Positions 1-58,409 of a stretch of 58,409 nt of DNA are shown one piece after another. Under the pieces are notes generated by a model. The model was not told where the DNA came from. It made no database searches and saw only the letters and a program-made list of their open reading frames with translations. This DNA is from Rhodospirillales bacterium RIFCSPLOWO2_02_FULL_58_16 (GTDB lineage: Bacteria > Pseudomonadota > Alphaproteobacteria > Rhodospirillales > 2-02-FULL-58-16). Positions within the stretch are counted from its first letter, which is position 1, and the number at the start of each line of letters is the position of its first letter. The position numbers and the translations under genes are program-made. The stretch is taken from the NCBI GenBank assembly GCA_001830425.1, contig MIAA01000043.1:24780-83188 (forward strand). The letters run 5' to 3'.

Positions 1-298
1 GGGGGGGGACAAAAAGGAAACGCACGACGACTGCGCCGCCGGTCATGACCGAAGCATCTCTGAACTCGAATGAAGTCACGGCGACCTGCCTTTCACACGC
101 TTGCGTTTAGACACATTAATTGTAGGGTTATTGTACGATGGAATCATCAAAAGTAAAGTGACCTGCATCACATGTAGATTAAAATTTGGTATATTAGAAT
201 GTTTCCAGTTTATCCGGACCAAGTCCGCGCATGACATTAAAAAATTTAGGATAAGGTTTAATCAATCATGATGCGCCCGAATGAATCAAAACACCGGA
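1..298. other. Intergenic sequence at window start, no gene seen
   Basis: The window opens on a run of eight G. No reading frame with a plausible start, ribosome binding site or family resemblance was seen. From about position 115 the stretch is AT-rich. A short piece near 224-236 resembles the right arm of repeat family B but is too short to call. Confidence 0.5.
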
Positions 299-7112: not shown

Positions 7113-8240
7113 ATGCAAAACAGTACGCCGCAAACCGACCCGGCCTCAGGCCGGGTTATCAAGGTTTCCGTTTTCAGCGGCAACGACATCTTCAGGAATG
7201 ACGCTTTCGGGGCGCTCTCTCCGTTTTATCTGGTTTCGGCCTTCGATACCGCCGACGGAGCGTTGGAGAGGATGCTGTCAAGTCCCCCGTCCGCCATCAT
7301 CATCGACACAAAATTGCAGCCTGTGGGAGGAGTCGCTTTTCTCAAGAAAATACATGAAACTGAAAAATTAAATCATATCCCGGCCCTTATCGTCACCCAT
7401 TCCCAGCGCCCGGAAGATCACGAGGAAGCAAAACAGGCGAAGCCTGACGCTTTCCACACATGGCCGCTGCGCAAGAGCATATTTCTTGAAACCGTTTCGC
7501 GCATGGCCAACAGCTCGGTTGAGAAAGGCTGGGACAGTCTTCCGCCGATTCAAGCCGCCGTTCTCCGGGAAACCGTCAGCGTCTTCAGGAACAGTTTTCA
7601 CGTCGTCCGCAACGGCCAGCCCTTGCCCCTTTCGCAAATCGAGGAAAGCAGCGGGCCGTTGATCGAGGCCGTCAGCTCCAACCGGTTCGGCGGCATCCTG
7701 AACGGTTTGCGCGATCATGACGATTACACCTATGTCCACAGCATGCGCGTTTCCATCCACCTTTCCATGCTCGGCCACGCCATGGGCATCCGGGGAGACG
7801 ACCTCAAGACATTGGCCGTCGGAGGGCTGGCCCACGACATCGGCAAGTCCCTGGTGCCGATTGAGATTCTCAACAAACCGGCCAAGCTGACCGCCGAGGA
7901 GTGGCCGTTGATGCGGGATCATGTTCTCCATTCCAAGGCCGTCTTTGACAGGTCGCCCGACATCGGCAAGGGGATCACCATCATCGCCCTTCAACACCAT
8001 GAAAAACTGGACGGCAGCGGCTATCCCTATGGCCTGAAGGGCAAGGAATTGAACGATCTGGCGCGTATGGCCTCCATCGTCGATATCTACGGAGCGCTTA
8101 ACGACCGCCGCGCCTACAAGCCGCCGTTTCCTCCGGAAAAAGCCCTGGAGATCATGTCGGAAATGAAGGATGGATTGGACCAGAATCTGGTAAAATTGTT
8201 CGGCGATTTGTTACTGAACGCGGAACATGCGGTTGATTAG
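7113..8240 (+). CDS. HD-GYP domain response regulator
   Basis: About 375 residues. Residues 15-130 resemble a receiver domain and keep the acceptor-position aspartate (IIIDT), but lack the usual N-terminal acidic pair and the conserved lysine, so phosphorylation is doubtful. The C-terminal half is a full HD-GYP domain with HDIGK, HHEKLDGSGYP and DIYGALNDRRAY, the motif set of cyclic-di-GMP phosphodiesterases; hydrolysis of cyclic di-GMP is the family inference. An in-frame ATG at 7074 has no ribosome binding site, so the ATG at 7113 (GGGG just upstream) is preferred. The stop TAG runs directly into a G12 tract. Divergent from atpH. Confidence 0.88.
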   Translation: MQNSTPQTDPASGRVIKVSVFSGNDIFRNDAFGALSPFYLVSAFDTADGALERMLSSPPSAIIIDTKLQPVGGVAFLKKIHETEKLNHIPALIVTHSQRPEDHEEAKQAKPDAFHTWPLRKSIFLETVSRMANSSVEKGWDSLPPIQAAVLRETVSVFRNSFHVVRNGQPLPLSQIEESSGPLIEAVSSNRFGGILNGLRDHDDYTYVHSMRVSIHLSMLGHAMGIRGDDLKTLAVGGLAHDIGKSLVPIEILNKPAKLTAEEWPLMRDHVLHSKAVFDRSPDIGKGITIIALQHHEKLDGSGYPYGLKGKELNDLARMASIVDIYGALNDRRAYKPPFPPEKALEIMSEMKDGLDQNLVKLFGDLLLNAEHAVD

Positions 8241-8270
8241 GGGGGGGGGGGAGGTTGCTGCCGATATCCC
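8240..8270. repeat. Repeat family C, left half, with G12 tract
   Basis: Twelve G (8240-8251, the first being the last base of the HD-GYP stop codon) run into AGGTTGCTGC, which matches the GGGGGAGGTTGCTGC part of the family C copies at 30475 and 37249. The right half of that element appears only after repeat A2, at 8442. Confidence 0.6.
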
Positions 8271-8580: not shown

Positions 8581-9703
8581 ATGCGCGCCGAGATAGAATC
8601 ATTGGTTCAAGACATCAAACAGTCGCTGGAACTGTTGAGGAGGCATCTTTGACTACGACAACGCGGTGCGGCGCCTGGATGAATTAAACGCCGAGGCCGA
8701 AAATCCCGACTTGTGGAACAGTCCGGCCAAAGCGCAGGAGATTATGCGCGAACGCACCATGCTCATCAGCGGCATCAGCTCCATCCGCTCCCTTGAGCGC
8801 GAACTCGCCGATAATATCGAACTGCTGGAGATGGGCGAAGCGGAAGGCGACGCCGGCGTAATCGCCGAGGCCGAGACGGCGCTGACGGCGGCGCATGCCG
8901 CCGCCGCCGAGGCGGAGCTGGAATCCTTGTTGTCGGGAGAGGCCGACGCCAACGACTGTTATCTGGAGGTCCATGCCGGCGCCGGCGGCACCGAGGCCCA
9001 GGACTGGGCCGAGATGTTGCAGCGCATGTATGTGCGCTGGGCCGAGCGGCGCGGCTACAAGGTGGAGTGGATCGAGGAAAGCGCCGGCGAGAGCGCCGGC
9101 ATCAAATCGACCACCCTCAAGATCAAGGGAAACAACGCCTACGGTTGGCTCAAGACCGAAAGCGGCGTCCATCGGCTGGTGCGGATATCGCCCTATGATT
9201 CAAGCGCCCGGCGCCATACCAGCTTCTCCTCGATATGGGTCTATCCGGTGATCGACGACAATATCGAGATCGAGGTGAACGACAAAGATTTGCGGATCGA
9301 TACCTACCGGTCATCCGGCGCCGGCGGCCAGCATGTCAACAAGACCGACAGCGCCGTGCGCATGACCCACCTGCCCACCGGCATCGTCGTCCAGTGCCAG
9401 ACCGACCGCTCCCAGCACAAGAACCGGGCCGCCGCCATGGCCATGCTGAGGGCGCGCCTCTATGAACGCGAGTTGAAGATACGCGAGGACGAGGCCCAGG
9501 CCCAGCATGACGCCAAGACCGATATCGGCTGGGGCCATCAGATACGCTCCTACGTCCTGCAACCCTACCAGATGGTCAAGGATTTGCGCACCAATGTCGA
9601 GACTTCCAATACGCAAGGAGTGCTCGACGGCGATCTGGACCCCTTCATGGCCGCCTCCCTGGCCTCCCGCATCAAGGGCGGAGTCGGCCCTATTGTAAAA
9701 TAA
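8581..9703 (+). CDS. prfB: Peptide chain release factor 2 (programmed +1 frameshift)
   Basis: Releases finished peptides at UGA and UAA stop codons. Codons 1-23 start at ATG 8581 and end at an in-frame TGA (8650-8652); the rest of the protein is read one base further on, from GAC at 8651, giving about 373 residues. The shift site is the classic AGGAGG-CAT-CTT-TGA-C. The catalytic GGQ motif ([12 protein letters not shown]) is present. The stop-codon recognition tripeptide reads SPY where the E. coli factor has SPF. A GTG at 8666 could look like the start of a truncated gene, but that would lose the N-terminal helix. The 3' end overlaps the convergent fliL-like gene by 14 bases. Confidence 0.95.
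8638..8653 (+). promoter_or_regulatory. prfB +1 recoding site
   Basis: An internal Shine-Dalgarno AGGAGG (8638-8643) lies three bases before the slippery codon CTT (8647-8649), followed by TGA and C (8650-8653). These are the elements known to drive autoregulatory +1 slippage in bacterial RF2 genes: when RF2 is scarce, UGA is read slowly and ribosomes shift into the full-length frame. The downstream frame is open at once, which supports function. Confidence 0.95.
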
Positions 9704-24477: not shown

Positions 24478-25118
24478 TGGCTATCGACGTTAAAATTTGC
24501 GGGCTGAGTACGCCGGAAACCGTGGCCGCCGCCGTCGAGGGCGGGGCCAAGTACGTCGGCTTCGTTTTCTATCCGCCGTCGCTTCGTGCTGTGACATTGG
24601 AACAGGCCAAGGAACTGGCCGCCGCCGTGCCCAAGCATGTCAAAAGGGTCGGTCTAGTGGTAAACCCGGACGATAAGACGTTGCGGTCTATCGTCAAAGG
24701 CGGGTTTATCGACTTGTTGCAACTTCACGGACGCGAGATTCCCGAAAGAGTGGCTGAGGTCAAGAAGAAATTCGGCCTGCCGGTGATCAAGGCCATCGCC
24801 ATTTCCTGCCCTGATGATGTGGAGGCGGCGAAGTCCTATGAGGCCGTCGCCGATATTTTGTTGTTTGACGCCCTGGCGCCGGAACATTCAACCACGCCCG
24901 GCGGCAATGCCCTGGCCTTTGACTGGCAACTGATTCATGGCTATGTGTGGAAAAAGCCGTGGATACTGGCCGGCGGGTTGAATGTCGGCAACCTTCAGAA
25001 AGCGGTTCTCGCCTGTGACGCCACGGCGGTCGATGTCTCATCCGGCGTTGAGGTCTCCCGTGGCGTAAAAAGCGCGGGCAAAATTCGGGAATTCCTGAAA
25101 ATGGCCGAGATGCTTTGA
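24477..25118 (+). CDS. trpF: Phosphoribosylanthranilate isomerase
   Basis: 213 residues. Third step of tryptophan synthesis from chorismate. Motifs: the catalytic Cys segment VKICGLSTPE at residues 5-14, YVGFVFYPPSLR, LLQLHGRE, and the phosphate-binding end ILAGGLNVGN with AVDVSSGVE. Translationally coupled to pyrF. In many alphaproteobacteria trpB and trpA follow trpF; here they do not. Confidence 0.95.
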   Translation: MAIDVKICGLSTPETVAAAVEGGAKYVGFVFYPPSLRAVTLEQAKELAAAVPKHVKRVGLVVNPDDKTLRSIVKGGFIDLLQLHGREIPERVAEVKKKFGLPVIKAIAISCPDDVEAAKSYEAVADILLFDALAPEHSTTPGGNALAFDWQLIHGYVWKKPWILAGGLNVGNLQKAVLACDATAVDVSSGVEVSRGVKSAGKIREFLKMAEML

Positions 25119-25936: not shown

Positions 25937-28900
25937 ATGCCGGAAGTTCAAAGACGAAGGGAAGCGTTGGATGAAAAGCGATTCGGTAGTTTCGTTGTCG
26001 GATACCGGCAAGGGGGGGGGGCGTTCGGAAAATTTCTCCGCATGCCGATTTCGGCATTGGCCCTTGTCGCCGGCATTGCCATGCTTGCCTCTTCGCCGGT
26101 TGTCGCCGCCGAGCAGGATGACGCAGTAGACGACAGTTCGTCCACCGCGTTGACGGTGGGGAACTCCGCCAAGTTTACCGCTCCCGCCGCCGGCACGGAT
26201 GAAATTTTCACGATCGGCGCCGGCGTGACCGTCGGCGAAGGCGGCATAGTCGTGTCCGCCACCACCGCTAACGGCGTAGGCGCCCTGACGTTCGCCGGCG
26301 CATCGACGGCGACCGGCACCATCGGCGCCACCGGCAACCGGCTCGGTATTCTCAACGCCGGCGCGACCGGCACGACGGCGACCTTCACCGGCAACATCTT
26401 CGCCGTCACCACCAATGTGACGGGCGGCGCCGCCGGCACCATCGCCCTCCAGGGCGACCTTACCGGCACTACGCTCGACTTCGACGCCGACGGCACGGTG
26501 ACGCTCGCCACCGGCAAGAACATCACCGCCGCCATCACCGCCACCACCGCCAACAACGGCACGTTGACCCTCGCCGGCACCCACACCATCACCGGCGCCA
26601 TCGGCGTCATCGCCGGCGGCAACGAGTTGAAGCTGATCACCCTTGCCGGCGGCGGCGTAGTGACCACCACCGCCAATGTGGCCGCCACCTCGATCAACTT
26701 CACCGGCGACGGCAACCTGAAGATCGCTACCGGCAATACGGTGGAAGGCGCGATCACCACCGGCACCACCAACACCGGCACCCTCACCATGGACGGCGCC
26801 GGCGCCATATCGAGTCAAGTCGGCGCCAATGGCGCGGTGCTGAAGCTGGTTACCGTCGGCAACGGCGCGGTGGCGGTCAACGGCGACGTCTACGCGACCG
26901 CCGTGAACTTCGCCGCCGATAATACGTCCACGGTTGCGGCGGACAAGAAGATCGTCGGCGCAGTGACCACCGGAACCACCAATACCGGCACATTGACCTT
27001 CGCCACCACGACTGCCGCCACGACGCTGGTCAGCGGCAACGTCGGCGCCTCCGGCGCGTTGTTGAAGGCGGTTAACAGCACGGCCGGCAACGGAATCACC
27101 AACACTTTCGGCGGCGACATATACGCCACCACCACGACCTTCACCGGCGGCAATGCGACGTCGGTATTCGCCGTCGGCGGCGATATATCGGGCACCACGC
27201 TTGCCTTGGTCACCAACGGCGTTGTCAATATCGCGGCGGGCAAGAATGTGACTGCGGCCGTCACCACGGGCACGGCCAATATCGGCACCCTGAACTTCGC
27301 CGGGACCAACACGGTCACGGGGAACATCGGCGTGATCGGCGGGAACGAATTTTTGGCCTTCAACGTCAACGCCGGCACCGTGACCATGGGCGGCAACTTC
27401 GCGGCCGCCACCACCACGGTCGCCGCCTCGTCCACCCTGAAGACCACGGCGGCGCGAACCTACGAAGGCATTATCGCCAACAGCGGCACGCTTGATCTGG
27501 GCGGCACGTTGACGGCGACTTCCGGCGGCGGCGCTCTCGCCCTCGGCGCCTCCGCGACCTCCGCCATCGTTCTCGGTCAGGTCTCGGTCTATGCCGGCGG
27601 CGTGGTGATCAATGCGACGGACACCAACGTAACCGCCGCCAACGCCGTCACGGTTACTCCACATACGTTATTTACCTCAGGCACGTTGACGCTGGTTGAT
27701 GTCACCACCGGCACCAATGCCGCCAGCACCCAATACACGGTGACCGGCAACGCCCTGACGAGTTACGCGGTGACCGGGGGCGGGGGCGCTACCGACCTTA
27801 CCATCACCGCCACCAGGAAAGCTTCTTCGGCGATTGCGGCGAGTCTCGGAACGACCGCTTCGGCGGGCAATGCCCTCGGCGCCGGCGTCGATGCTACGGC
27901 GAATGATGCGACGGTTACCGCCGCTTATAATACTGCCCTGACGGCCGGCGGCGCGGAGGCCAAGAAGGCCGCCGAACAGTCCGAACCGATAAAGGTCGGG
28001 GCCGGGACTGCGGCCATGGCGCAGACCGGCAGTACGGCGTTCAACACCGTCAATATGCGTCTTGCCTCCATTCGCGAAGGCGGCGAATACGCCGGACGCG
28101 AGCGCACCGGCTTCGCCACCGGCAATTCCGGCCTGAACAAGGGAGTCTGGATGCGTCCGTTCGCCAACGTCGGCGACCAGGACAAGCGCGACGGCTTCGA
28201 GGGCTATAATTCCATCACCGGCGGCCTTGCCGGCGGCTTTGACGCCAAGGTCGGCGATAACTCCCGCATCGGCGTCGGCGTCAGTTATGGACGGTCATGG
28301 GTCGATGGCGACGGCGTGGCGAATAACCAGTCCGACATCGACAGTTACCAGGGCATGGTTTACGGCGATTATACCGCTTCGCGCTTTTATTTTGAAGGCA
28401 TGGCCGGTTACGCCTACAATGAGGTGAATACCGAACGCAGCGTTACCTTCGGCGGGTTAAGGCGCACCGCTCAAGGCGACTATCAGGCCGATCAGTACAT
28501 GGGCCGCATCGGCGCCGGCATACCCATCACCATCGCGAGCGGGCATGTGTTTACGCCCAACATCGGCTATCAGTACACCCGTCTGAACGGCGAATCCTAT
28601 ACGGAGACCGGGGCGGGCGCGTTGAATCTCAGAGTGAACCCCGACGACACCAACATCGGCCTCGCGATGGCGGGGCTGCGCTATAACGCCACTTTCTCGA
28701 CCGGCATCGGCAGTTTCAAGCCGGAGTTGCGGGCCGGAATGATGTATGACACCTTCGGGGAATCCGGGCAGTCGTCGTCCACATTCACCGGAGGCGGCGC
28801 GGCCTTCGCCACCACCGGGGCGGATAATGCCGACTTTTCGGGAACGGGAGGGGCCGGACTTACCTACACCGCTCCCAGCGGCGTAATTTCCATACGCGCC

Positions 28901-28972
28901 GACTATGACGCCGAGGCCAAAGAAGATTTCGTCGGTCACAGCGGGCGGCTTGAAGGCCGGTGGAACTTCTAG
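25937..28972 (+). CDS. Autotransporter with repetitive passenger, possibly phase-variable
   Basis: The open frame encodes 1011 residues: signal peptide ending near SSPVVAAEQ (about residue 57), a Thr/Gly/Ala-rich beta-helix passenger with repeats of about 70 residues (units begin GTLT), and a C-terminal 12-strand autotransporter beta-barrel (about 725-1011) ending in Phe (RLEGRWNF). The start is unclear. ATG 25937 is in frame but has no ribosome binding site. ATG 25971 has GGGAAG at good spacing but is in another frame, reaching the passenger frame only if the G10 tract at 26012 becomes 11 or 8. ATG 26042 would give a signal peptide without a basic N-region. A terminator follows at 28998. Likely a surface adhesin; inference from fold. 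Confidence 0.85.
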   Translation: MPEVQRRREALDEKRFGSFVVGYRQGGGAFGKFLRMPISALALVAGIAMLASSPVVAAEQDDAVDDSSSTALTVGNSAKFTAPAAGTDEIFTIGAGVTVGEGGIVVSATTANGVGALTFAGASTATGTIGATGNRLGILNAGATGTTATFTGNIFAVTTNVTGGAAGTIALQGDLTGTTLDFDADGTVTLATGKNITAAITATTANNGTLTLAGTHTITGAIGVIAGGNELKLITLAGGGVVTTTANVAATSINFTGDGNLKIATGNTVEGAITTGTTNTGTLTMDGAGAISSQVGANGAVLKLVTVGNGAVAVNGDVYATAVNFAADNTSTVAADKKIVGAVTTGTTNTGTLTFATTTAATTLVSGNVGASGALLKAVNSTAGNGITNTFGGDIYATTTTFTGGNATSVFAVGGDISGTTLALVTNGVVNIAAGKNVTAAVTTGTANIGTLNFAGTNTVTGNIGVIGGNEFLAFNVNAGTVTMGGNFAAATTTVAASSTLKTTAARTYEGIIANSGTLDLGGTLTATSGGGALALGASATSAIVLGQVSVYAGGVVINATDTNVTAANAVTVTPHTLFTSGTLTLVDVTTGTNAASTQYTVTGNALTSYAVTGGGGATDLTITATRKASSAIAASLGTTASAGNALGAGVDATANDATVTAAYNTALTAGGAEAKKAAEQSEPIKVGAGTAAMAQTGSTAFNTVNMRLASIREGGEYAGRERTGFATGNSGLNKGVWMRPFANVGDQDKRDGFEGYNSITGGLAGGFDAKVGDNSRIGVGVSYGRSWVDGDGVANNQSDIDSYQGMVYGDYTASRFYFEGMAGYAYNEVNTERSVTFGGLRRTAQGDYQADQYMGRIGAGIPITIASGHVFTPNIGYQYTRLNGESYTETGAGALNLRVNPDDTNIGLAMAGLRYNATFSTGIGSFKPELRAGMMYDTFGESGQSSSTFTGGGAAFATTGADNADFSGTGGAGLTYTAPSGVISIRADYDAEAKEDFVGHSGRLEGRWNF
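26012..26021 (+). repeat. G10 homopolymer tract in autotransporter 5' end
   Basis: Ten G in a row between the best-placed start (ATG 25971) and the signal peptide. Slippage by +1 or -2 would join that start to the long frame. Tracts of this kind act as translational on/off switches in several surface protein genes of other bacteria. Confidence 0.6.
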
Positions 28973-56971: not shown

Positions 56972-57106
56972 CTACCCCTCCAGCACTTCCTTTACCTTGC
57001 CGGCCAGGTCTTTCAGGCTGAACGGCTTGGGCAGGAAGTGGATGCCGGGGTCGCGGGCTATTTCCTCGTTCAGGACGTCCTCGGCATAGCCGGACATCAG
57101 GATTAA
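56972..57106 (-). pseudogene. cckA-like C-terminal fragment (receiver domain end)
   Basis: The frame reads 44 codons that match the very end of alphaproteobacterial CckA: LMSGYAEDVLNEEIAR, then IHFLPKPFSLKDLAGKVKEV and a TAG stop. The conserved lysine of the receiver domain (FLPKPFS) is included. Just upstream, at about 57103-57110, the similarity stops and the RTX gene's C-terminus begins in a different frame, its stop codon overlapping the fragment. CckA is a hybrid kinase that controls CtrA and is often essential, so either the intact gene is elsewhere or this is a breakpoint or assembly join. Confidence 0.75.
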
Positions 57107-58409
57107 GCAATGGAAATGAAATCCGTGGTGACGAGTTGTTGGTTCTCGACCACGGAAACCAGGATCAACTCGTCAGCCGTGATATTGTCAACCGCAGCCC
57201 CGTTTTCGGCGTAGTAGTAAACCGCCGTACTGTTGCTGCCCTGGGCGGCGATCAGGGCGTCGACGCCGCTGGTTGGAGCGGAACCGACGGACATATAGGC
57301 ATTGATCTTGGCAATCAGAGCAGCGAAGCCGGATACCGTCAGATCGGCATCGGCAAGGGTGGTCCCGGCCGCATTGGTCAGGAACAAGGCCTCGTGAGTG
57401 GCGTTAAAATCAACCGTCGCATTGGTAGCCCATGAGAGAGATGTATTGGTTGCCCCCATATCGTTAACGGCGGCGGCCATGGTATCAAGCAAGCTGAACT
57501 TGTCGGCGCCGGAAACAAAGTCGGTAATCCTGTCATAGCCGGTAGCCGCTCCCGCCGCCGCCCCGTCGGTGATCGCCATGTATTGGAAAATATCTACCCC
57601 ACTGCCGCCTATCAGGATATCAGCGCCGCCACCGCCGTTGAGAGTGTCATTGCCGGCGCCGCCGTCAAGAGTGTCATTGCCGGAGTTGCCGCTGATGACT
57701 TCATTGATCGCGCTGCCGGTGATGGCATCGTTCCCCGTGCCGCCGGTGATGGTCTCGGTGTTGGAAACAGTCAACGTGTTGGTCCCGTCGGCAAGCGTCA
57801 GCGCGTCGGCGGTGCCCGCTCCAAGATTGATCGTTCCCGAGACCTGCGCCGCGCCCAGCGTAATGGCGTCGTTCCCCGTGCCGCCGGTGATGGTCTCGGT
57901 ATTGGAAACAGTCAACGTGTTGGTCCCGTTGGCCAGCACAAGACGGTCGGCGCCGCCTCCGAAGTCAAAGACCCCCGAGACCTGCGTCGCGCCCAGCGTA
58001 ATGGCGTCGTTCCCCGTGCCGCCGGTGATGGTCTCGGCGTTGGAAACAGTCAACGTGTTGGTCCCGTCGGCAAGCGTCAGCGCGTCGGCGGTGCCCGCTC
58101 CAAGATTGATCGTTCCCGAGACCTGCGCCGCGCCCAGCGTAATGGCGTCGTTCCCCGTGCCGCCGGTGATGGTCTCGGTATTGGAAACAGTCAACGTGTT
58201 GGTCCCGTTGGCCAGCACAAGACGGTCGGCGCCGCCTCCGAAGTCAAAGACCCCAGAGGCCTGCGCCGCGCCCAGCGTGATGGTGTCGTTCCCCGTGCCG
58301 CCGGTGATGGTCTCGGTATTGGAAACAGTCAACGTGTTGGTCCCGTTGAAAAGGGTTATGGAGTCAGTCCCCGTCCCCAGGTTGATCGTTCCCGAGGCCT
58401 GCGCCGCGC
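57103..58409 (-). CDS. RTX-type repetitive secreted protein, 5' end beyond window
   Basis: At least 434 residues, open to the window edge, so partial; no start in the window is convincing. From the N-terminal side: repeats of 46-47 residues alternating two kinds (one with SGVFDFGGGADRLVLANG, one with SGTINLGAGTADALTLADG), each ending NTLTVSNTETITGGTGNDAI-like; then RTX nonapeptides (GNSGNDTLDGGAGNDTLNGG) that should bind calcium; then a Gly-poor C-terminal domain (about 170 residues) fit for a type I secretion signal. Probably a secreted adhesin or surface protein. No type I secretion genes are in view. Confidence 0.8.
   Translation of the reverse strand, partial: AAQASGTINLGTGTDSITLFNGTNTLTVSNTETITGGTGNDTITLGAAQASGVFDFGGGADRLVLANGTNTLTVSNTETITGGTGNDAITLGAAQVSGTINLGAGTADALTLADGTNTLTVSNAETITGGTGNDAITLGATQVSGVFDFGGGADRLVLANGTNTLTVSNTETITGGTGNDAITLGAAQVSGTINLGAGTADALTLADGTNTLTVSNTETITGGTGNDAITGSAINEVISGNSGNDTLDGGAGNDTLNGGGGADILIGGSGVDIFQYMAITDGAAAGAATGYDRITDFVSGADKFSLLDTMAAAVNDMGATNTSLSWATNATVDFNATHEALFLTNAAGTTLADADLTVSGFAALIAKINAYMSVGSAPTSGVDALIAAQGSNSTAVYYYAENGAAVDNITADELILVSVVENQQLVTTDFISIA
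57745..58409 (-). repeat. Tandem repeat array, alternating 141/138-bp units
   Basis: The segment GGTGATGGTCTCGG recurs at about 57745, 57886, 58024, 58165 and 58303, spaced 141, 138, 141 and 138 bases. Two unit types alternate, so the true near-identical repeat is about 279 bases. The array runs past the window end. Confidence 0.9.

Follow-up and report, generated by a model that had tools for sequence, protein, structure and literature searches.

Poly-G tracts that switch the reading frame of surface proteins are best known in host-adapted bacteria, e.g., Campylobacter and Neisseria. In Neisseria, a poly-G tract located in the signal-peptide coding region of pilC has been experimentally shown to switch this surface protein. 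In the lic2A gene of Haemophilus influenzae, the repeat is reportedly preceded by multiple initiation codons that are not all in one frame, with differential expression as the outcome. Two autotransporter genes of Campylobacter, capC and capD, carry a G tract of about 9-10 residues, which lies in the coding sequence of capD and upstream of the start codon of capC; the position of the tract is conserved across the genus, its length varies, and in capC gene decay showed no relation to tract length (PMC7168839). In Treponema pallidum, a poly-G tract is found upstream of the outer-membrane protein gene tprL, whose start and signal peptide have been re-annotated, and the effect of this tract on transcription has been tested (PMC7864442). 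In C. jejuni, switching is reportedly mediated by G tracts of at least 8 residues, and the cut-off used by PhasomeIt for G/C tracts is 7 (PMC6321876). More generally, homopolymers at gene 5' ends have been proposed to act as a switch in the case of poly-A/T (PMC2831843). No example of poly-G phase variation in alphaproteobacteria was encountered in the literature searched, which does not by itself prove its absence.

The window analysed here, a stretch of 58,409 nucleotides (contig 43, positions 24780-83188, of a 2.73-Mb genome in 53 contigs), contains an autotransporter gene with a run of ten G (G10) near its 5' end. The closest named matches to the rpsA gene of this genome are for the most part MAGs labelled Rhodospirillales or Rhodospirillaceae. 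As for capC and capD, the G tract, which is of similar length, belongs to an autotransporter gene; unlike them, with their genus-wide tract position and varying lengths, the locus is known from one genome. As in pilC, the poly-G would lie in the signal-peptide coding region of a surface-protein gene, but pilC belongs to another gene family and another bacterial class, and its switching was shown by experiment. The alternative starts in different frames 5' of the tract resemble what is said of lic2A, which differs by its tetranucleotide repeats, its experimentally mapped starts and its product, a glycosyltransferase and not an autotransporter. As for tprL, the poly-G is found in the start region of a surface-protein gene, but the tprL tract lies upstream. 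G10 also exceeds the G/C repeat cut-off of 7 for contingency loci, a value set for Campylobacter. By analogy, the locus would work, on paper, like these known systems, of which it is a credible candidate member; as a contingency locus of a known kind, it is a credible but unproven candidate. If so, such surface heterogeneity would extend to other alphaproteobacteria, via an uncharacterised Rhodospirillales-like lineage.

The autotransporter gene and the frames upstream of its tract

The autotransporter gene is preceded by trpF-like and IalB-type genes, and a promoter scan found none. Its PF03797 beta-domain is complete (E 2.4e-50, profile positions 1-255 of 255, residues 737-991 of 1011) and lies at the C-terminus, as in type Va (classical) autotransporters. 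PF03797 was matched once in a profile search of the whole genome, this gene being its sole Pfam autotransporter. The features of the 5' region are collected in Table 1.

Table 1. Features of the autotransporter locus (window positions; SD, Shine-Dalgarno).
Feature	Position	Strand	Remarks
Autotransporter gene	25937..28972	+	1011-residue frame; repetitive passenger and C-terminal PF03797 beta-domain
First ATG of long frame	25937..25939	+	Without evident SD
GAAGGGAAG, SD-like site	25956..25964	+	Anti-SD duplex -5.3 kcal/mol
TTG start candidate	25967..25969	+	In long frame at 10 G; same SD, shorter spacing
ATG with best-placed SD	25971..25973	+	Frame off at 10 G, joined at 8 or 11 G
G10 homopolymer, putative slippage tract	26012..26021	+	Read in sequence
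FGKFLR n-region and hydrophobic signal-peptide core (FGKFLRMPISALALVAGIAMLASSPVVAA)	26024..26110	+	Compared with homologues
First in-frame ATG 3' of tract	26042..26044	+	Signal peptide would be without basic n-region

The ten G described in an earlier note on this DNA are present, and its statement that the best-placed ribosome-binding site is that of ATG 25971, a start out of the passenger frame as assembled, agrees with both the SD duplexes and the frame check. Pairing with the anti-SD sequence is strongest, and the spacing good, for ATG 25971, compared to -2.1 kcal/mol for ATG 25937 and -3.5 kcal/mol for ATG 26042. The note had considered 25937 and 26042 to be the sole in-frame starts, which is wrong, since the long frame has a further start, TTG 25967, which it overlooked and which shares the SD of ATG 25971; the SD scan window ends 7 nt before ATG 25971 and 3 nt before this TTG, whose spacing is thus 4 nt shorter.

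Three frames lead into the tract. In the long frame, which is open after TGA 25922, the start codons are ATG 25937 and TTG 25967; in the second they are ATG 25971 and TTG 25995. The third is closed by a TAG at 25987, with no ATG, GTG or TTG beyond it. The passenger frame is joined by the long frame at 7, 10 or 13 G, by that of ATG 25971 when there are 8 or 11 G, as had been claimed and as frame computation confirms, and by the third frame at 9 or 12 G. At 10 G, the ATG 25971 frame stops after 52 codons. By frame arithmetic, a change in tract length alters the frame for any start 5' of the tract.

One quite possible reading, which we hold tentatively and short of calling it probable, is that of a switch. 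The G10 tract would lie within the translated leader of the autotransporter, 3' of the initiation site and 5' of the signal-peptide core, and replication slippage at the tract would alter the reading frame. As start codons are found in two frames 5' of the tract, three outputs are predicted. The stronger output would come from tracts of 8 or 11 G, through initiation at the well-placed ATG 25971; at 7, 10 (the assembled length) or 13 G, initiation at ATG 25937 or TTG 25967 would give a weaker, and probably weak, output; at 9 or 12 G, no full-length product would be made, because of the stop at 25987 and the lack of any ATG, GTG or TTG after it, and expression would be off. It is more doubtful that all of this holds together as an alphaproteobacterial contingency locus with three states, where the tract would select one or the other of two unequal initiation sites with separate leaders, or none, and set the sole autotransporter to strong, weak or off. 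The tract, the frames, the starts and the SD scores are observed; translation through the tract, the relative strength of the starts, slippage itself and any benefit from switching are presumed. The three-state prediction, and the compatibility of any start 5' of the tract with switching, refine the earlier note; the anatomy that it described is correct and its interpretation partly supported, the switching itself being hypothetical. The genome possesses both mutS and mutL and its mismatch repair looks intact, so that hypermutability of tracts through loss of mismatch repair is unsupported.

Probable translation across the tract and the choice of start

A hydrophobic core, as expected of a Sec-type signal peptide, is present and, as previously described, FGKFLR is located directly 5' of it in the long frame. 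A basic n-region exists only with initiation 5' of 26042: starting from Met 26042, the n-region has no K/R, whereas there are two in the preceding ten residues (GGGAFGKFLR), and these, the only K/R here, sit between the tract and Met 26042. In homologues from the order and the class with a readable N-terminus, whose likely start was chosen by eye, K/R precede the signal-peptide core in 21/21 cases (1 to 5 each). The sequence MGQMFRKILLGGSSALALLATAPAYA of L022 is similar to FGKFLRMPISALALVAG. As the n-regions of the homologues are all basic and that from 26042 is not, initiation 5' of the tract would be likelier than at 26042, and any one-base slip would then change the product.

Codon scores were read against those of real gene starts (2.6 +/- 5.0) and non-coding leaders (-3.4 +/- 5.5). 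On the 3' side of the tract, FGKFLR scores +2.6 in the long frame (6 codons) and the shifted frame -12.9 (26 codons), which fits coding in the long frame and disfavours the shifted one. On the 5' side, the ATG 25971 frame scores +3.3 (13 codons) vs -1.5 for the long frame (14 codons), which slightly favours the former; this evidence is weak, as coding and non-coding DNA are barely distinguishable by it. On the stronger argument, that of the signal peptide, translation probably passes through the tract, in which case tract length would set the frame for 25937, 25967 and 25971 alike, with a different ON length. A start at 25937, which had been proposed as a refutation of switching, would merely make 10 G the ON length.

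The genus is represented by one genome and the family by nine others, none of which (0/9) contains the autotransporter gene. No homologue sharing the leader was found among the genus, family, order, class and genome contigs searched. The two best homologue matches (48-50%) are truncated where their contigs end, and no G run of at least 8 occurs in the leader of any homologue whose 5' end is available.

G runs, counted by pattern search, number 29 of 8 G, 10 of 9 G, 4 of 10 G, 3 of 11 G and 1 of 12 G in the genome. A general richness of the genome in poly-G was considered and rejected, as runs of at least 10 G are not over-represented (8 observed vs about 16 expected under an independent-base composition model), and the existence of the tract is therefore unsurprising. 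This counts against a switch, since known phasomes usually have tracts in excess, a trait that is supporting and not strictly defining. At least one G10 run is found in 258/297 genomes of the order. What is notable is the position of the tract, in what is probably the coding part of the leader of the only autotransporter. Elsewhere in the genome, a G11 run (L001:1501-1511) lies near a contig end, immediately 5' of an apparent tRNA 3' half, perhaps at an assembly join.

Among the explanations that involve no switch, the one that survives best, unlikely as we consider it, is translation from ATG 25937 or TTG 25967 with a long leader, in which G10 would be an incidental in-frame Gly-Gly-Gly. The long frame is indeed open as assembled, and in-frame coding G10 tracts are found elsewhere, in the same genome (L166, DctP-like, and L168) and, several times, in relatives; in genomes of the family, some runs of at least 10 G are located just 5' of plausible starts (L235, L240), whereas others encode Gly stretches in frame. 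The earlier note had discounted 25937 for its absent SD, which does not follow: the SD scores of 24 window genes range from 0 to -9.3, and 6/24 are at -2.9 or weaker, i.e., a quarter are about as weak as that of 25937, which can therefore not be dismissed. An incidental Gly stretch fits less well with the codon score of the long frame 5' of the tract (-4.6 over 24 codons), which is like that of non-coding DNA, and with the better SD/ATG pair being out of frame.

The assembled G count may also be wrong by one, the true gene having a fixed 11 (or 8) G; this would be an ordinary gene starting at ATG 25971, the model whose SD is best and whose codon score is gene-like. Assembly of poly-G is prone to errors, and its length is hard to call: a G11-N9-G8 assembly gap is found on the same contig, at the left edge of the window (window 1-8; contig 24760-24787), and in related assemblies contigs end in poly-G. 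The autotransporter tract is nevertheless internal, with unique flanks, and we consider a miscount rather unlikely.

G runs in the leaders of other genes

Runs of at least 9 G on the sense strand are concentrated at gene 5' ends, 6 of the 17 other runs of this length in the genome lying on the sense strand within about 100 bases around a gene start (P about 1e-4, an approximate value from a simple binomial with assumed gene number and 100-base leaders). The six leaders are those of dxs, nuoC, motA and genes for terB-like, hlyC-like acyltransferase and cytochrome bd subunit I-like products. As the duplex between G9 and the anti-SD amounts to -10.9 kcal/mol, leader G runs may be ribosome-binding elements, and in leaders such as those of dxs and nuoC the length of G9 cannot alter the frame. 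motA was considered as a second frame-switch gene and set aside: a TTG right after its G9 yields a plausible MotA N-terminus, so that this G9 seems to be a leader or SD element. Since such runs occur in housekeeping leaders, a leader G run alone is no sign of phase variation, and their concentration there is a warning against calling each of them a switch; the autotransporter tract differs in being probably inside translated sequence.

The same concentration and anti-SD pairing could however be taken to mean that the autotransporter starts at ATG 26042, its tract being part of a 5' untranslated leader like the G9 preceding dxs, nuoC, terB, motA and the hlyC-like gene, and perhaps binding the anti-SD. 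We consider this improbable: the tract ends 20 nt upstream of 26042, which is far for an SD, and the signal peptide would lack the basic residue that all 21 homologues have. Far less probable still is that ATG 25971 feeds the passenger at 10 G through transcriptional slippage or a ribosomal -1 frameshift at the G run: a shift of -1 is what its frame requires, and G GGG GGG could serve as a slippery site, but the leader RNA folds in an ordinary way (z -0.80) and a matching site is found in no homologue.

Two other regions of the window deserve mention. The prfB gene (RF2; PCRF and RF-1 domains downstream) displays the classic programmed-frameshift layout at window 8640-8670 (SD-like gaggagg, then cttTGAc), and upstream of it a G12 run (window 8240-8251) overlaps the TAG that terminates an HD-domain response-regulator-like gene. 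At the other end, a tandem repeat of 138/279 bases (window 57722-58409) extends to the end of the window and overlaps a minus-strand frame (57103-58332) with RTX calcium-binding repeats (PF00353).
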